Below, in pieces: positions 8,706-14,485 of a DNA stretch of 64,000 bases (position 1 is the first letter of the stretch; each line of letters opens with the position of its first letter). The notes under the pieces were generated by a model. The model saw only the letters and a list, made by a program, of their open reading frames with translations. It was not told the origin of the DNA and did not search any database. A program made the position numbers and the translations under genes. Origin of the DNA: Malaciobacter pacificus. GTDB taxonomy: Bacteria; Campylobacterota; Campylobacteria; Campylobacterales; Arcobacteraceae. The stretch spans positions 558,001-622,000 of the forward strand of contig NZ_CP035928.1 in assembly GCF_004214795.1 (NCBI RefSeq), given 5' to 3'.

Positions 8706-8735
8706 GTCCCTTAAAAAATGGGACATTTTTTAAGG
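8706..8735 (+). promoter_or_regulatory. Two mutually exclusive hairpins before znuB
   Basis: Hairpin A pairs GTCCC (8706-8710) with GGGAC (8720-8724) and is followed by ATTTTTT, a terminator shape. Hairpin B pairs 8709-8719 with 8725-8735 (11 bp, perfect, loop GGGAC) and covers the AAGG ribosome-binding site of znuB. The two cannot form together. This suggests attenuation or translational control of the permease. Confidence 0.5.
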
Positions 8736-8741
8736 ATATAT

Positions 8742-9536
8742 ATGTTTGAAGCTTTACAATATGACTTTATTCAAAATGCAATCATAGCAGGAGTTCTAAT
8801 CTCAATTGCTGCTGGTATCATTGGCTCACTTGTAGTTGTAAATAAAATCACTTTTTTAACAGGTGGAATTGCCCATAGTTCTTATGGTGGAATTGGACTT
8901 GCTATTTATTTAGGAATTCCAGTGCTTTTTGGAGCAACTGTTTTTGCAATAATCACTGCAATAATCATCGCAATACTAACCATAAATGATAAGAAAAGAA
9001 TAGACTCCATCATAGGTATGATGTGGGCTAGTGGTATGGCTATTGGTATTATATTTGTGGATTTAACACCTGGCTATAATGTGGATTTGATGTCATATCT
9101 TTTTGGTAGTATTATTGCTGTATCAAGTGATGATATAACTTATCTCTTACTTCTTGATTTATTTATCATAAGTGTAGTATCAATTTTCTATAAGCAAATA
9201 CTAGCCGTTTCTTATGATAGTGAATTTGCAAGTCTAAGAGGAATAAATGTAAAGTTCTTTTATACACTTATTTTAATCCTTGCAGGACTTTGTGTAGTTG
9301 CAGCTATCAAAGCAGTTGGGCTTATACTTGTGATTGCTCTTTTGACTATTCCTACATATTTAGCTGAAACTTTTGCTAATAAACTGTCTAAAATGATGTT
9401 TATAAGTGCTCTTTTAGCTACTTTATTTACACTTCTTGGACTTGTGATTTCTTACCTTTATGATATTAGCTCAGGGGCTAGTATTATTATCGTTGCAGTT
9501 GCTATTTTGGTTATTGTGAAGTTGATTAAAAGATAA
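8742..9536 (+). CDS. znuB: Zinc/manganese-type ABC transporter permease (ZnuB-like)
   Basis: 264-aa inner-membrane permease with about eight hydrophobic helices. The start at 8742 is preferred: AAGG lies 6 bases before it, while an in-frame ATG at 8718 is inside the hairpin region. Typical family elements are the early helix IAAGIIGSLVVVNKITFL, then GGIAHSSYGGIG, and SLRGINVKFF, which contacts the ATPase. It forms a transporter with the ZnuC-like protein 120 bp upstream. The metal (Zn or Mn) cannot be fixed from sequence. Confidence 0.88.
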   Translation: MFEALQYDFIQNAIIAGVLISIAAGIIGSLVVVNKITFLTGGIAHSSYGGIGLAIYLGIPVLFGATVFAIITAIIIAILTINDKKRIDSIIGMMWASGMAIGIIFVDLTPGYNVDLMSYLFGSIIAVSSDDITYLLLLDLFIISVVSIFYKQILAVSYDSEFASLRGINVKFFYTLILILAGLCVVAAIKAVGLILVIALLTIPTYLAETFANKLSKMMFISALLATLFTLLGLVISYLYDISSGASIIIVAVAILVIVKLIKR

Positions 9537-9619
9537 AAAAACTATTCAAATTGAGTCATTTCTGAGTCATTTGTTAGATATAATAAAATTTATTATAAAA
9601 ACAAAAGGCTCTATTTTTT

Positions 9620-9772
9620 ATGTGTATAAATCAATTTAAAGATACCAAATACCAAGAACTACAAACTATCCAAAAAGAAGCAAGAAACTTAGAGTCTCAA
9701 ATAAATGCAATAAAATTCCAAAATCAAAAACAATCTATTGTATCACCAACTGATGGATATGTAGCAAAACTA
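9620..9772 (+). pseudogene. Fragment of a HlyD-family membrane fusion protein
   Basis: About 51 codons resemble the coiled coil and lipoyl-like edge of a type I secretion adaptor: a heptad-like stretch LQTIQKEARNLESQINAIK, then the family motif SPTDGYVAKL. An intact HlyD protein is about 400 aa, and both ends are missing here; past residue 51 the frame only reads antisense of the next gene's 3' end. This is best read as debris of a deleted secretion gene. The call rests on one motif plus coiled-coil character. Confidence 0.55.
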
Positions 9773-9790
9773 ATAATAATATCTTTTCTT

Positions 9791-10510
9791 TTATTCTATA
9801 CTATCTTTTTGTTCATATAATTTTCCACATTGATTAATACTCTTTCTGCAAATTATATCTTCTATTATTATGAATTCATTTTGTTTCTTAAATTGTTCAA
9901 AAGTACCTTTCCAAAGTAAATTACTATTACAAATTCCATAGCTTTTAAGTACAATACTATTTTTAATATTATCTATGTGTAAGCTTGAAGATGTTCCTGC
10001 TCCTCCTGCTGGATTAAAAATGAAATATTTGGGTGGTAGTTTATTATTTAAAATAGGAGTGTAATTTTTTTCATTTTTGATTTTTGATATTTCTGAAAGA
10101 ATGGATAAAGAGTTATTATTAAAAATTAACTCAAGTTCTTCTTCTCTTTTTAAACCTTTGTCTTCTTTTAGACTATAAAGATATGAAACTACATTTAGAT
10201 TAACAACAAATTCACCATTTTCATTAAAATACTTTGAGTTTATTTTTTCCACATCTTTTTTGATATAAGGCCATTTTTCAATATGATCTTCTTTTAGATC
10301 TACTAATTCAAAAATTGAAATAAAACCTAAATTATTATAATTTATCTTATCTGCATATAAAGACATAATTCTACCGGTTGTTATATTTTCAAGGTAATTA
10401 TTTAATAGAATTTCTATTTTATCAGTAATTATTTTTTCATTTTTATTATTTTCGGCAAATAGAAAATTGATATAAAAACTAATTGTAAAAATTATAAATA
10501 TATTTTTCAA
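9791..10510 (-). CDS. Secreted protein with NTF2-like N-terminal half, function unknown
   Basis: 239 aa. A signal peptide (about residues 1-20, ending FAE) indicates export. Residues about 30-140 resemble a bacterial NTF2-like module: LYADKINYNNLG, an Asp/Glu-Asp-His stretch, KWPYIKKDV, then alternating strands and an ISEISK-like end. Residues about 160-239 show no family I know; they contain four cysteines and a glycine-rich PAGGAGTSSS segment. An AAAGGA site lies upstream of the ATG. It follows decayed sequence in a variable region. The NTF2 assignment is by pattern only. Confidence 0.6.
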   Translation of the reverse strand: MKNIFIIFTISFYINFLFAENNKNEKIITDKIEILLNNYLENITTGRIMSLYADKINYNNLGFISIFELVDLKEDHIEKWPYIKKDVEKINSKYFNENGEFVVNLNVVSYLYSLKEDKGLKREEELELIFNNNSLSILSEISKIKNEKNYTPILNNKLPPKYFIFNPAGGAGTSSSLHIDNIKNSIVLKSYGICNSNLLWKGTFEQFKKQNEFIIIEDIICRKSINQCGKLYEQKDSIE

Positions 10511-10799
10511 AGGAGTCCTTTTTTTATTTTAATCTCAAATACACACCAAACCCATACAAACAATAGATTTCATATGGTTTTGGGTTTTCATCATATATCC
10601 AAGAAAAGAATCTTCCACTATAGCTTACCTTAATATTTTCTTGGATAATTTTGTTTAGTTATTGCCATATCTTTATTATGAATAAAAGTATTAGCATCTG
10701 TAATTGTTAATATGGTATCATCTGTAAATTTTGATTGAGATATAAATATCTTCGTTCTTTACCAGCACTAAATGTTAACAGATAGTTTTTTTTATACCT
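10511..10799 (-). pseudogene. Decayed coding remnants on the reverse strand
   Basis: There is no intact gene. Read on the reverse strand, two short open stretches in different frames look protein-like: one reading KIFISQSKFTDDTILTITDA and one ending SYSGRFFSWIYDENPKPYEI with a final GFGVYLRLK. The second has the alternating aromatic pattern of an outer-membrane strand. These look like the broken 3' end of a surface-protein gene, but the family cannot be named. Confidence 0.35.
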
Positions 10800-11726
10800 T
10801 TAATCATTACTTTTACAATATCTAATAGTCTCTCTAAGAGATCTATCATTATATTTTTCTACTAAAGATTCACATCTTTTAATCCATTTGTTTTTTATAT
10901 TTTCTGAAAATGGTTTTTGCTTTAAAACATAAAATAGTATTACATCAAAAAATCTAATATTTTTATCCTTTAAATTCTCAAGCCAGAAGTTTAATACTTT
11001 TTCTTTATTAAAAGTTACTCTGTAATAAATAAATATAATGACATTAAGTTCTATTGGCATATCTCTGTAACTTGAAAAGTAAGCTTTTTCACTTATAATA
11101 TCATCAATATTAAATTGAATTAATTCATCTTCAATATTTTCTATTTTTTTAACTAATCTATCAGCTTCCATACAACCACATGTAGAACATGAACCAATTC
11201 CATATGCATCAGAAATACATAGTTTGTTTTCTTTTATTTTTTCAATTGCTCCTCTAAGATTTATAGAATACTCTAAGATTAAATTAACAGCTTTAATATC
11301 ATGTTTTTCTGGATTACTTTCTCTAATAAATTCATAGTTTTTAGTATATTGTCTTATTAATAGTGATGTTTTCTTCGAGATTTCTTGTTTATTGGTGTTT
11401 TCAATTCTAAATGATTGTAAAGCTATTATGTTAAATAAAACTCTATTTTTTCTAAAAATTACTACTAAATTTTCAAAGTATAATAAAGAAGAAGTTCCTG
11501 CAGCTCCTAAAACTAAAATCACTTTATTTGAATATTGAAGTAAAGTATTTAACTTTTTTTCAAAATCATTATCTTTTGGATTCAATTTAAAATTAGCTTG
11601 ACTTATTGCAAGTAGTTGTAAATCTTTTTGAATTGATAAAGTTTTAAAAGAATCATCTATTTTATCTTGAAGTAAATTGATTATATTGTTACCGCAACCA
11701 CCAAGACCTATAATTAGTTTTTTCAT
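10800..11726 (-). CDS. Divergent FtsZ/tubulin-superfamily protein
   Basis: 308 aa, function unknown. The N terminus MKKLIIGLGGCGNNIINLL matches the first nucleotide-binding loop of FtsZ (GGGGGNAVN). Residues 70-80 (ILVLGAAGTSS) sit where FtsZ has its GGGTGTG loop and are followed, as in FtsZ, by a hydrophobic helix, a strand and SFRIEN (FtsZ PFRFEG). Residues 152-190 can be laid against the FtsZ T7 and core-helix region, but the catalytic NxDxxD reads INLRGAI, so GTP hydrolysis is doubtful. An unusual CSTCGC cluster lies at 180-185. It is shorter than FtsZ (about 380) and has no FtsZ tail. AAAGG lies 6 bp before ATG. It follows two small genes that may form its operon. Confidence 0.6.
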   Translation of the reverse strand: MKKLIIGLGGCGNNIINLLQDKIDDSFKTLSIQKDLQLLAISQANFKLNPKDNDFEKKLNTLLQYSNKVILVLGAAGTSSLLYFENLVVIFRKNRVLFNIIALQSFRIENTNKQEISKKTSLLIRQYTKNYEFIRESNPEKHDIKAVNLILEYSINLRGAIEKIKENKLCISDAYGIGSCSTCGCMEADRLVKKIENIEDELIQFNIDDIISEKAYFSSYRDMPIELNVIIFIYYRVTFNKEKVLNFWLENLKDKNIRFFDVILFYVLKQKPFSENIKNKWIKRCESLVEKYNDRSLRETIRYCKSND

Positions 11727-11821
11727 ACTTTACCTTTGCAAAATTTATCTAAATACAATTTATATGAATATTTGTTATAAAATATTTTACTATTAAAAAT
11801 TGACAACTTAGTGTCTGGAAA

Positions 11822-12049
11822 TTAATTTTTAATTTCTACATACTTTGACAGTTTTGTACCTTTTCTAATTTCAGATGCCAAAGATTTTTGAGTTCCTGCA
11901 TTTTTAACAATATTTTCAATACTAAGATTACTTTCTTTTATAATATCTGCGTATTTAATCCCAAATAAATGATATTGAACATAAATTTCACCTTTTTTTG
12001 CACTTTCTATCATTTTATTTAAAATAATTGATAGCTCTATTTCATTCAT
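11822..12049 (-). CDS. Small helix-turn-helix-like protein
   Basis: 75 aa, all-helical by pattern. The segment HLFGIKYADIIKESNLSIEN, then a small GTQKSLASEIRKGTKLSKYV, looks like a compact DNA-binding-type fold; I recall similar HTH-like small proteins beside accessory genes, but cannot verify this here. Its ATG overlaps the stop of the upstream 164-aa gene (ATGA), so the two are translated together. The FtsZ-like gene begins 95 bp downstream. It is the best candidate for binding the 36-bp palindrome upstream of the operon. Confidence 0.6.
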   Translation of the reverse strand: MNEIELSIILNKMIESAKKGEIYVQYHLFGIKYADIIKESNLSIENIVKNAGTQKSLASEIRKGTKLSKYVEIKN

Positions 12050-12540
12050 TGCTTTATCTCCATTTTTTCATACTCATTAACAATAAATTCGGCCAAAGGC
12101 TCCCACAAAGTAACATCTTCATTTAGCTCACTAAATACTTTTCCATGATTCTTATATGAAATTATTTTCATTTGATTGAAATTCGTTTTGAATTTATGCT
12201 GATCCAATCCTGAAGCTTTTTCTAAATCATTTAAATTTACAGATATTTCATTTTTATTAGATATCTTCAAAAAAGCTACTAATATTTTATGGTTATATTG
12301 TTCTGGTTTAGAAAACCATGAAGGTATTTTTCTTTTTACTCTCTCAATTTCCTCTTCTTCTGTTCTTTCAGTTAGTAAAGAGGTTTTATTTTGTTTTTTA
12401 CTATTTGCTACATCTTGTAGTTTTTTTGTGTCTGTAAGTATAGACAAAAGCAATTCTTCTAACTCTTCATCTCCTAATAATATTGATTTTTTATAGGCAA
12501 GTTTAGAATTTTCAATTAAGTTCGAAACAATTTCATTCAT
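12046..12540 (-). CDS. Unknown protein, first gene of the FtsZ-like operon
   Basis: 164 aa, soluble. The N-terminal half is helical and charged (a Glu-rich TEEEEIERVKR hinge near residue 65). The C-terminal half (about 70-160) reads as a winged-helix-like unit: KIPSWFSKPEQYNHKILVAF, a central LEKASGLDQHKFKTNFNQMK and a closing KNHGKVF ... VTLWEPLAEFI. I have no firm family name. AAGGAG precedes the start, and the -10-like TATTAT and the palindrome at 12583-12618 lie just upstream. A regulatory or nucleic-acid-binding role is an inference. Confidence 0.6.
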   Translation of the reverse strand: MNEIVSNLIENSKLAYKKSILLGDEELEELLLSILTDTKKLQDVANSKKQNKTSLLTERTEEEEIERVKRKIPSWFSKPEQYNHKILVAFLKISNKNEISVNLNDLEKASGLDQHKFKTNFNQMKIISYKNHGKVFSELNEDVTLWEPLAEFIVNEYEKMEIKQ

Positions 12541-12582
12541 ATTTGACTCCTTATTTGAAACTATAATATAAACTTACTTAAT

Positions 12583-12618
12583 TTAACTTAAAAGTACTTA
12601 TAAGTATTTTTAAGTTAA
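12583..12618. promoter_or_regulatory. 36-bp near-perfect palindrome, probable operator
   Basis: Two 18-bp arms meet without a spacer (12583-12600 and 12601-12618) and match at 17 of 18 positions; the core TACTTATAAGTA is perfect. It overlaps the expected -35 region of the reverse-strand operon (-10-like TATTAT near 12564-12569). Autorepression by one of the two small operon proteins is the simplest reading. Confidence 0.6.
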
Positions 12619-12630
12619 GAAATAGGGGTC

Positions 12631-12725
12631 AAAACTACACCCCAAAAACTACACAAAACTACACCCCAGGGGTTGAATCTCCACTTTTGAAACTACACCG
12701 AAACTACACCCCAAAACTACACCCC
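12631..12725 (+). repeat. Six short AAACTACAC repeats
   Basis: AAACTACAC, often extended to AAAACTACACCCC, occurs six times in 95 bp (beginning 12631, 12645, 12655, 12690, 12701 and 12713). Copies three and six lead directly into the longer REP-like repeats. Confidence 0.75.
12655..12688 (+). repeat. REP-like repeat, copy 1
   Basis: 34-bp unit identical to the copy at 12713-12746. It carries the palindromic core CCCCAGGGG followed by a conserved arm ending CTCCACTTTT. It sits upstream of the RAYT gene, as cognate REP elements do. Confidence 0.8.
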
Positions 12726-12746
12726 AGGGGTTGAATCTCCACTTTT
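12713..12746 (+). repeat. REP-like repeat, copy 2
   Basis: Identical 34-bp direct repeat of 12655-12688, 58 bp further on, about 90 bp before the RAYT start codon. Confidence 0.8.
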
Positions 12747-12834
12747 AAATTTATGATATTACAAAATGAAATATTTTAAATGATTAATTAAAATTCTTAT
12801 TATAATTTATAAAATTATTAAATAGGGAGTATTT

Positions 12835-13623
12835 ATGCCTACAAAACCTAGAATTGATTTTGCGGGATTTCATCATATTGTAAATAGAGGAGTAAATAGA
12901 ACAAATGTCTTTAATCATCCAAATGATAAAGATATGTTTTTACAAATCATAAATAAAAGCTCAAAAGTTCATAATATCATATTACATACTTATGCTTTGA
13001 TGGAGAATCATTATCACCTTTTACTAGAAACAAAGGAAGAGAATCTATCATCATTTATGAGAATTGTAAATGCAAATTATGCAATATATTTCAACAGAAA
13101 ATATAATAGAAGTGGCCATTTGTGGCAAGATAGATATAAATCAAAATATGTTTTATCTGATAACTATTTGTATACAGTAATAAAATATATTGAGTACAAC
13201 CCTCTTGAAGCAAATATTAGCTCAAAAATTTCATCTTATCCTTTTACTTTATCATATAATATTTTTAAAGGTTTGAAATATTATCCTTGTTGCGAAAATT
13301 CAATTTTATTAAAAGATTTTGATATTAAGACATTGAGTGATTTTTTAAATAATCCACTGAATGATAAAGAAATTGAGTTACTAAGTGAAAAAGAAAATAT
13401 AGAAAAAAAGAAAAATAAAATCAATGTACTGAAAATTAAAACATTAAATGAGCATTTTAAAGATGTAGATTCAAAAGAACAAAGAAATAACTCAATTTTT
13501 AACTCTTTTTATGATGGTTATACTCAAGTTGAGATTGGAAATTATTTGAATTTATCTAAATCATCTATTTCAAAAATACTAAAAAGTGGAGATTCAACCC
13601 CTGGGGTTAAAAAATTATGCTAA
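12835..13623 (+). CDS. REP-associated tyrosine transposase (RAYT, TnpA_REP type)
   Basis: 262-aa Y1-type single-strand transposase related to IS200/IS605 TnpA. The N-terminal PRIDFAGFHHIVNRG, the metal-binding HYH in MENHYHLLLE and the catalytic tyrosine region IKYIEYNPLEA are intact. A C-terminal extension ends in a predicted helix-turn-helix (EIGNYLNLSKSSISKILK). GGGAG lies before ATG. Two direct REP-like repeats precede the gene, and an inverted copy forms its last codons (13582-13607), so the final residues GDSTPGV are encoded by the repeat. Family knowledge: RAYTs are usually domesticated single-copy genes that mobilise or maintain REP sequences. Confidence 0.9.
   Translation: MPTKPRIDFAGFHHIVNRGVNRTNVFNHPNDKDMFLQIINKSSKVHNIILHTYALMENHYHLLLETKEENLSSFMRIVNANYAIYFNRKYNRSGHLWQDRYKSKYVLSDNYLYTVIKYIEYNPLEANISSKISSYPFTLSYNIFKGLKYYPCCENSILLKDFDIKTLSDFLNNPLNDKEIELLSEKENIEKKKNKINVLKIKTLNEHFKDVDSKEQRNNSIFNSFYDGYTQVEIGNYLNLSKSSISKILKSGDSTPGVKKLC
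13582..13607 (-). repeat. REP-like repeat, inverted copy inside the RAYT 3' end
   Basis: 26 bp exactly complementary to 12663-12688 and 12721-12746. It lies in frame within the RAYT gene just before its stop. Confidence 0.8.
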
Positions 13624-13657
13624 AATACAACAACTAAATAGAAAGACGGAATAACCA

Positions 13658-14485
13658 ATGAATGAAAAAATAAAAATAGGTGAGATAAACTCACTAAAAT
13701 TAAACAGAGTTAGTGAACCAGGTGTTTACTTAATTGCAGCAGATGAAGAGGAAGTATTACTTCCAAATATATATGTTACAAAAACTATGGCTATGGGCTC
13801 AGTTATTGATGTGTTTGTTTACACTGACAGTGAAGATAGACCAGTAGCTACTACACTAAAACCTTATGCAAAGCTTGGCGAGATTGCTTTTTTAGAGATT
13901 GTTGATAGTGCTAAGTTTGGGTACTTTTTAGATATGGGATTACCAAAAGATTTATTATTACCTAAAAATAGAACTAAAAAAACTTTTAATATCGGTGAGA
14001 GAGCAATAGTTCAGTTACAACTTGATGAAAAAACAAATAGACTTATTGCATCACAAAAATATATCTTAGAGAAAAAAATCACTGGATTAGAAAGAAAAGA
14101 TGAAGTTGAAGTTATGGTTTATTCAAAAACTCCACTTGGATTTAAAGTAATAGTAAACAATCTTTATGAAGGTATGATTTTCCATAATGAAATTTTTGAA
14201 AATGTAAGTATAGGTGATAAAAAAAGAGCTTATGTAAAAACTGTAAGAAGTGATAATAAACTAGATATTACTTTACAGAAGATTGGCGAGAAAGTAAAAG
14301 ATAATGAAGTTTATGAAATCTTAGTTCAAAATGGTGGAAAGCTAGATTTTACTTATAAAAGTGACTCTACAGACATAAAAGAGATGTTTGGGGTTAGTAA
14401 GAAATCATTTAAAGCAACTCTTACTAAGTTAATACAAGAGGGTAAAATAATCCTTGATGAAACATCAATAAGAGTTAAATCGTAA
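13658..14485 (+). CDS. cvfB: CvfB-like S1-domain RNA-binding protein
   Basis: 275 aa. Repeated OB-fold modules are visible: the N-terminal unit with VLLPNIYVTKTMAMGSVIDV, a second with FGYFLDMGLPKDLLLPKN, a third with LGFKVIVNNLYEGMIFHNEI, and a C-terminal winged-helix region KEMFGVSKKSFKATLTKL. This S1-S1-S1-wHTH layout is that of CvfB, an RNA-binding regulator first described as a virulence factor in Staphylococcus. Role in this organism: post-transcriptional regulation, inferred. It stands alone between the RAYT and tpx. Confidence 0.85.
   Translation: MNEKIKIGEINSLKLNRVSEPGVYLIAADEEEVLLPNIYVTKTMAMGSVIDVFVYTDSEDRPVATTLKPYAKLGEIAFLEIVDSAKFGYFLDMGLPKDLLLPKNRTKKTFNIGERAIVQLQLDEKTNRLIASQKYILEKKITGLERKDEVEVMVYSKTPLGFKVIVNNLYEGMIFHNEIFENVSIGDKKRAYVKTVRSDNKLDITLQKIGEKVKDNEVYEILVQNGGKLDFTYKSDSTDIKEMFGVSKKSFKATLTKLIQEGKIILDETSIRVKS

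Follow-up and report, generated by a model that had tools for sequence, protein, structure and literature searches.

A strongly diverged FtsZ relative in a defence-type accessory locus of a Campylobacterota chromosome

The window analysed here, a 64-kb stretch (G000:C1:558001-622000) of the 2.66-Mb single-contig chromosome of a Campylobacterota bacterium whose relatives include Arcobacter and other Arcobacteraceae, encodes a 308-aa protein that sequence comparison and structural modelling identify as a genuine, strongly diverged relative of FtsZ. The defence-type context of its operon is fairly well supported, by three routes: an ortholog encoded beside mcrB, fusions of a partner gene's HTH_73 domain to McrB, and relatives located in defence loci. 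As to the exact role and mechanism of the protein, we infer, tentatively, a sensor or adaptor presenting an FtsZ-like surface: the operon would be a defence-type accessory unit in which the FtsZ-derived protein acts as a sensor of the division machinery or of a phage protein attacking it, a reading that leads the alternatives considered below and to which we nevertheless give somewhat less than an even chance.

The gene lies in an insertion at a junction where znuC, znuB and an S1-domain gene are directly contiguous in at least 8 relatives, bearing out the initial annotation's description of an accessory locus. The principal features are as follows.

9537-13657, no strand assigned: accessory insertion of 4.1 kb, between znuB (8718-9536) and the S1-domain gene (13658-14485)
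10800-11726, minus strand: FtsZ-derived protein, 308 aa (sequence searches, profiles, AlphaFold model, fold search)
11822-12049, minus strand: HTH_73-domain protein, 75 aa (Pfam HTH_73, 1.3e-20)
12046-12540, minus strand: 164-aa protein, predicted to be probably a winged-helix DNA-binding autoregulator (homologs, HNH fusion, common upstream element)
12583-12618, no strand assigned: palindrome of 36 bp, probable operator (17 of 18 pairs; 42 bp before the first start codon)
12596-12605, no strand assigned: ACTTATAAG element, common to the upstream regions of three 164-aa-family genes, at about -57 to -66

The initial annotation had delimited the 308-aa ORF correctly, and had described two overlapping small genes upstream, one of them HTH-like, with a palindrome in front. 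The small genes do overlap, by 4 nt, the 75-aa product carries the HTH domain, and the palindrome is the only one of its kind in the 64 kb, with none found in 10 Markov replicates. Grouping all three genes in an operon is likely, but unproven for the third, as 95 bp separate the stop codon of the 75-aa gene from the start of the 308-aa gene. A conserved three-gene system did not emerge: the set occurs together at no other locus examined, and no homologue of the 308-aa protein was found beside either small gene, among homologues that are few and include a full-length ortholog whose contig starts only 44 bp upstream of the gene.

Beyond the trio, the insertion contains a Y1 (IS200-like) transposase gene, a 239-aa ORF (9791-10510, minus strand) that begins like a signal peptide and matches nothing in Pfam, and, between the trio's operator and the transposase gene, two 58-nt copies (12632-12747) carrying six AAACTACAC repeats. 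Transposon ends, operators and iterons of a centromere-like kind are all candidates for what these copies represent.

Ancestry of the 308-aa protein was established by several lines of comparison. Single-sequence searches gave weak, N-terminal matches to the FtsZ family TIGR00065 (5.4e-4) and to PDB entry 1w5f (0.086). An intermediate is provided by a 170-aa protein of a relative (L002/L053), which matches the 308-aa protein at 3.9e-7 and also lies above the curated cut-off for Pfam Tubulin. A profile of three short FtsZ-like relatives, built without the window protein, retrieved it at 2.7e-9, and retrieved canonical FtsZ at ~1e-18 in nearly all of 104 family genomes. A further profile, made from the window protein, its ortholog and three short relatives, scored 5e-18 against solved FtsZ structures, compared with 0.17 against TubZ/RepX. 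In the AlphaFold model (mean pLDDT 79, pTM 0.58), strands and helices follow one another in residues 1-152 much as they do in FtsZ, and a PDB fold search with this model returned FtsZ as all 50 of the 50 hits listed, with E values from 1.2e-7. Together, the single-sequence match, the independent profile and the predicted-fold match place the likeness to FtsZ beyond chance. The very divergent FtsZ/tubulin-like protein first proposed is thus upheld by profile and by fold, the predicted fold being tubulin-like rather than of another kind. In a tree, the window protein and its ortholog come out together at the end of a single long branch, 3.3 changes per column in length, and the tree does not place their origin within FtsZ.

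The anatomy of the protein can be set out as follows.

11232-11726, minus strand: FtsZ-type nucleotide-binding half, residues 1-165 (AlphaFold model, PDB fold search, alignment)
11685-11708, minus strand: T1 loop GLGGCGNN, residues 7-14, intact (alignment with canonical FtsZ)
11487-11507, minus strand: degenerate T4 loop GAAGTSS, residues 74-80, at the tubulin-signature position (alignment)
10803-11231, minus strand: all-helical C-terminal domain in place of FtsZ_C, residues 166-308 (model; stand-alone relative in L048)
11172-11189, minus strand: CSTCGC cluster, residues 180-185, at the start of the C-terminal domain; candidate metal site (identical in the ortholog L115; CTTCG in L048)

All four motifs named in the initial annotation, GGCGNN (9-14), GAAGTSS (74-80), SFRIEN (105-110) and the CSTCGC cluster (180-185), are present at those residues, and alignment with canonical and short FtsZ-like proteins assigns the first three to the T1, T4 and T5 positions, in agreement with the loop order and spacing it had recognised. 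In common with FtsZ (TIGR00065, PF00091/PF12327), the protein has an N-terminal Rossmann-like nucleotide fold and keeps the T1 sequence GxGGxGxN; the T5 glutamate is likewise retained in the alignment with canonical FtsZ. In contrast to FtsZ, its T4 loop is degenerate: GAAGTSS stands where canonical FtsZ has GMGGGTG, and neither it nor the ortholog's GTAGNSS fits the tubulin signature GGGTG(S/T)G. Further differences are the absence of T3 and the loss of the T6 ND motif (alignment with canonical FtsZ), the lack of a T7 NxDxxD motif in both alignment and model, the lack of a match to FtsZ_C (PF12327), the added helical domain with its CSTCGC cluster, and the accessory location of the gene. The stretch INLRGAI (155-161), initially read as the NxDxxD catalytic region, sits instead in helix H7.

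The C-terminal domain is modelled as several short helices over 143 aa, and a fold search with it gave nothing significant (best E 0.45). Relatives were found only in the ortholog (L115) and in L048 (genome G459), the latter as a stand-alone protein (9.0e-7). The CSTCGC cluster, identical in the ortholog and represented by CTTCG in L048, is a possible metal site.

Lacking T3, T6 and T7 as well as the C-terminal domain for polymerisation, the protein should, judging from the known structure and function of FtsZ, be unable to polymerise or to hydrolyse GTP in the FtsZ manner. This runs against the filament system that had been suggested; the accompanying idea of a perhaps non-hydrolysing protein is probably right as regards FtsZ-type hydrolysis. 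Nucleotide binding may itself be gone, as T4 is degenerate and T6 lost.

Divergent FtsZ families are known, among them FtsZl1 and FtsZl2, which like the window protein are FtsZ-like proteins outside division (PMC2875224), and the trio might accordingly be compared with an active FtsZ-like filament or membrane-remodelling protein of that type. An FtsZ-type nucleotide fold is shared, and FtsZl1 is likewise without a recognisable T6-H7 (PMC2875224). However, the window protein differs in its C-terminal region and gene neighbours: the FtsZl1 traits of a coiled coil after the FtsZ domain and of vWA, GTPase or OmpA neighbours were not recognised at the trio, the Tubulin_2 match is weak (0.008, below cut-off), and whereas FtsZl2 has all of T1-T7 and a 300-aa alpha/beta C-terminal region, the window protein lacks T6 and T7 and ends in ~143 helical residues. 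We therefore consider a filament or membrane-remodelling role, the latter an option raised initially, highly improbable.

The main functional rival to a sensor or adaptor is a division-arrest effector, in which the half-FtsZ would bind host FtsZ filaments at their exposed plus-end face and so block division as part of an abortive response, in a mode likened to that of MciZ, SulA and MinC. T3 belongs to the FtsZ contact face, and it is missing from the window protein and, by alignment, from its soluble half-FtsZ relatives as well, so that canonical docking may be lost too; this weakens the case for capping, and we judge division arrest rather unlikely. It would be in keeping with the retention of the nucleotide-side half alone, and a half-FtsZ could in principle occupy the plus-end (C-terminal) face, to which FtsZ inhibitors commonly bind (PMC11938149).

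Plasmid-type partition, another of the options raised initially, would make the trio a TubZ/TubR-like module captured in the chromosome. A tubulin-superfamily gene, small DNA-binding genes and the local array of six AAACTACAC repeats, found at one place in the genome, would suit such a module, as would broken half-FtsZ genes elsewhere (L046:5900-6600, L091:5600-5830), which lie in plasmid-like regions near ParA and a plasmid-type replication gene, with one or two AAACTACAC 9-mers nearby. Against this, the profile similarity noted above is to FtsZ and not to TubZ/RepX, neither T7 nor a polymerisation domain is present, mcrB is the gene that follows the ortholog, and a search of 72,556 plasmids with the 308-aa protein and with the ortholog gave no match. 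The repeats, moreover, are chromosomal and also adjoin the Y1 transposase gene. With the parts for polymerisation missing, partition is very unlikely. The initial statement that neither FtsZl nor TubZ/TubR systems fit exactly is thus sustained by loops, C-terminal region, neighbours and profile scores alike.

The two small genes add evidence on the context of the locus. Among Campylobacterota genomes, HTH_73 is fused to McrB-like AAA+ proteins in L004 and L006, a fusion seen in Campylobacter; at L012/L107 and L013 it makes up the N-terminal part of a protein encoded amid type I restriction genes, and in L105 it is found close to a PtuA/AriA-like ATPase gene. Two stand-alone homologs of the 164-aa protein (L094, L095) share 41-43% identity with it; the C-terminal half of its family is fused to an HNH nuclease in L096, and relatives of its N-terminal half occur in plasmid-like DNA (L097, L099). 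A weak match to MobC fell below cut-off. Although the collected loci contain only about one copy of the 9-mer ACTTATAAG per 36 kb, each of the three homologous genes has a copy 57-66 bp ahead of its start codon; from that density we estimate the chance of such placement in the two homologs at ~1e-5. It is thus likely to be a regulatory site common to the 164-aa family, most simply an autoregulatory operator, through which the 164-aa protein probably represses its own operon. PADLOC gave no family match better than 0.01 for any protein of the trio. Hits to Imm17 and hydA fell below cut-off and were taken as chance.

A single full-length ortholog was found, a protein of 310 aa on contig PDTW01000039.1 (L115), 62% identical to the window protein over 306 aa and first reached via the profile of short relatives. 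A McrB-type AAA+ gene, encoding a restriction GTPase, begins at the base right after the ortholog's stop codon; this neighbour is known from one MAG contig of 3.1 kb, which ends within mcrB and whose taxon label is doubtful. The label reads Candidatus Gracilibacteria; given the shortness of the contig and the close relatives of its genes in Campylobacterota, it may be misbinned. Regions related to its McrB AAA+ part, at up to ~70% identity, are present in 92 of 200 Campylobacterota genomes. Other searches with the 308-aa protein were empty: an exact-peptide search of genome contigs found no relative, nor did a phage search or scans of viral contigs, the last made with its relatives as well.

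Nevertheless, no McrB was detected in the window genome, and the window contains neither McrB nor McrC. This could mean that the operon is an orphaned remnant of a larger McrB-type system which has lost its effector and is drifting or serving as spare parts, and broken half-FtsZ copies at several other loci (L046, L047, L091) would fit such a history. All three ORFs are however intact, the predicted operator is well preserved, and dN/dS between the window protein and the ortholog is ~0.23 (NG86; 0.27/1.15), which indicates purifying selection between both lineages, although as an average it could hide recent relaxation. An orphaned remnant is on balance unlikely.

Half-FtsZ genes are scattered over Campylobacterota, some encoding soluble proteins (L045, L051, L053, L086), of which those compared are 23-29% identical to the window protein, and others proteins with an N-terminal membrane helix (L088-L090). 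Candidates at L049 and L050 proved unrelated or a fragment of canonical FtsZ. The short proteins resemble the window protein in consisting of the GTPase half only, in lacking T7, in their patchy distribution and in their frequent location in defence-type loci; the window protein differs in its extra helical C-terminal domain, its more degenerate T4 and its loss of T6. The T4 loop is better kept in the membrane-helix forms (L088:6062-6730, L089:6293-6982, L090:6089-6868).

Neighbours of half-FtsZ genes include integrases and, in L045, L088 and L090 (thus in two of the three membrane-helix loci), WYL regulator genes. In L045/L093 the half-FtsZ gene lies beside a DruE-type helicase gene (L093, 4e-207 to DruE3) as well as the WYL regulator; in L051, beside an HNH protein and a helicase that is hit by models for PbeA and for type IV restriction; in L086, beside a PD-(D/E)XK protein matching PDC-S26; and in L090, beside a NERD-UvrD helicase. 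Across ~10 independent loci, these neighbourhoods support turnover in a mobile, defence-type gene pool, and do not prove a defence function gene by gene.

Three further observations concern FtsZ-related genes. The half-FtsZ gene of L053 (1834-3136) is flanked by an exonuclease-like gene and by another piece related to division, an FtsK gamma domain standing alone (1.2e-20). In L087 (5214-10028, minus strand), a 1604-aa protein contains a complete FtsZ (Tubulin 1.9e-46, FtsZ_C 7.9e-25) that closely resembles the FtsZ proper to the family; behind it come a uracil-DNA glycosylase domain and a weak match to HEPN, and the gene adjoins a MoxR-like AAA+ gene. Two large Pseudoalteromonas plasmids (L055:5909-8050, L056:3914-6056) share a gene order in which a second FtsZ of ~362 aa stands between a WYL-annotated regulator and a tyrosine integrase.

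Among the options first listed, defence is thus the best, through the ortholog's McrB neighbour and the defence-type contexts of relatives. As we picture it, the sensor or adaptor would work in a mobile, defence-type operon repressed by the 164-aa protein bound to the palindrome, with the 75-aa HTH_73 protein as a DNA-binding or docking partner. The N-terminal half, keeping the FtsZ fold and the T1 phosphate-binding loop, would act as a monomeric module, since the loops and domain for polymerisation and GTP hydrolysis are lost. Most likely it would present an FtsZ-like surface to which host FtsZ or a phage FtsZ inhibitor could bind, and the helical C-terminal domain with its cysteines would pass the signal of this binding on to an effector, which in the relative L115 would be the McrB-type restriction motor. 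Computation supports directly the fold, the lost loops, the insertion, the McrB neighbour, the HTH_73-McrB fusions and the common upstream element; the binding of nucleotide and of partners, the signalling and the part played in defence are inferences. Weighing against this picture are the origin of the McrB neighbour in a single short contig, the lack of a detected McrB in the window genome, the lack of a homologue beside either small gene, the possible loss of nucleotide binding and the failure of PADLOC to match the trio.

Known systems offer partial parallels. Tubulin-family domains occur in predicted NTP-dependent conflict operons (Kaur et al. 2020, PMC7159879), including rare FtsZ effectors and actinobacterial tubulin forms that, like the window protein, carry a C-terminal alpha-helical domain; the partners in those systems are GAP1-N2 GTPases, vWA or HSP70, of which none was recognised at the trio, nor were the genes of a GAP1-N2 or MoxR plus vWA core recognised near it. 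With McrBC type IV restriction the locus shares the ortholog's position before an McrB gene and the fusion of HTH_73 to McrB elsewhere, but itself has neither McrB nor McrC. A tie between McrB-family proteins and FtsZ is known from PcdA, a McrB-derived protein that binds host FtsZ in Staphylococcus (PMC10602043), whereas here an FtsZ relative adjoins a McrB gene (L115). The literature searched, the coverage of which was incomplete, yielded no description of an FtsZ GTPase half that stands alone beside mcrB, Druantia-type or WYL genes.

Two recent lines already join FtsZ to phage defence. The PcdA study raised the question of how a restriction protein came to serve in division, its authors guessing that the septum is the site of action of some McrB systems (PMC10602043), and the defence toxin CapRel is activated by FtsZ complexed with the phage T7 protein Gp0.4 (PMC13423816). 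The FtsZ-derived gene before mcrB, together with the half-FtsZ genes beside Druantia-type and other defence genes, provides natural systems for testing those ideas. It is conceivable, if doubtful, that half-FtsZ proteins constitute an as yet undescribed class of immune sensors, serving as bait or docking modules that couple the division apparatus to defences directed at DNA, of the McrB type and others; if so, restriction would be triggered or localised when a phage attacks FtsZ, or by the division site as such.
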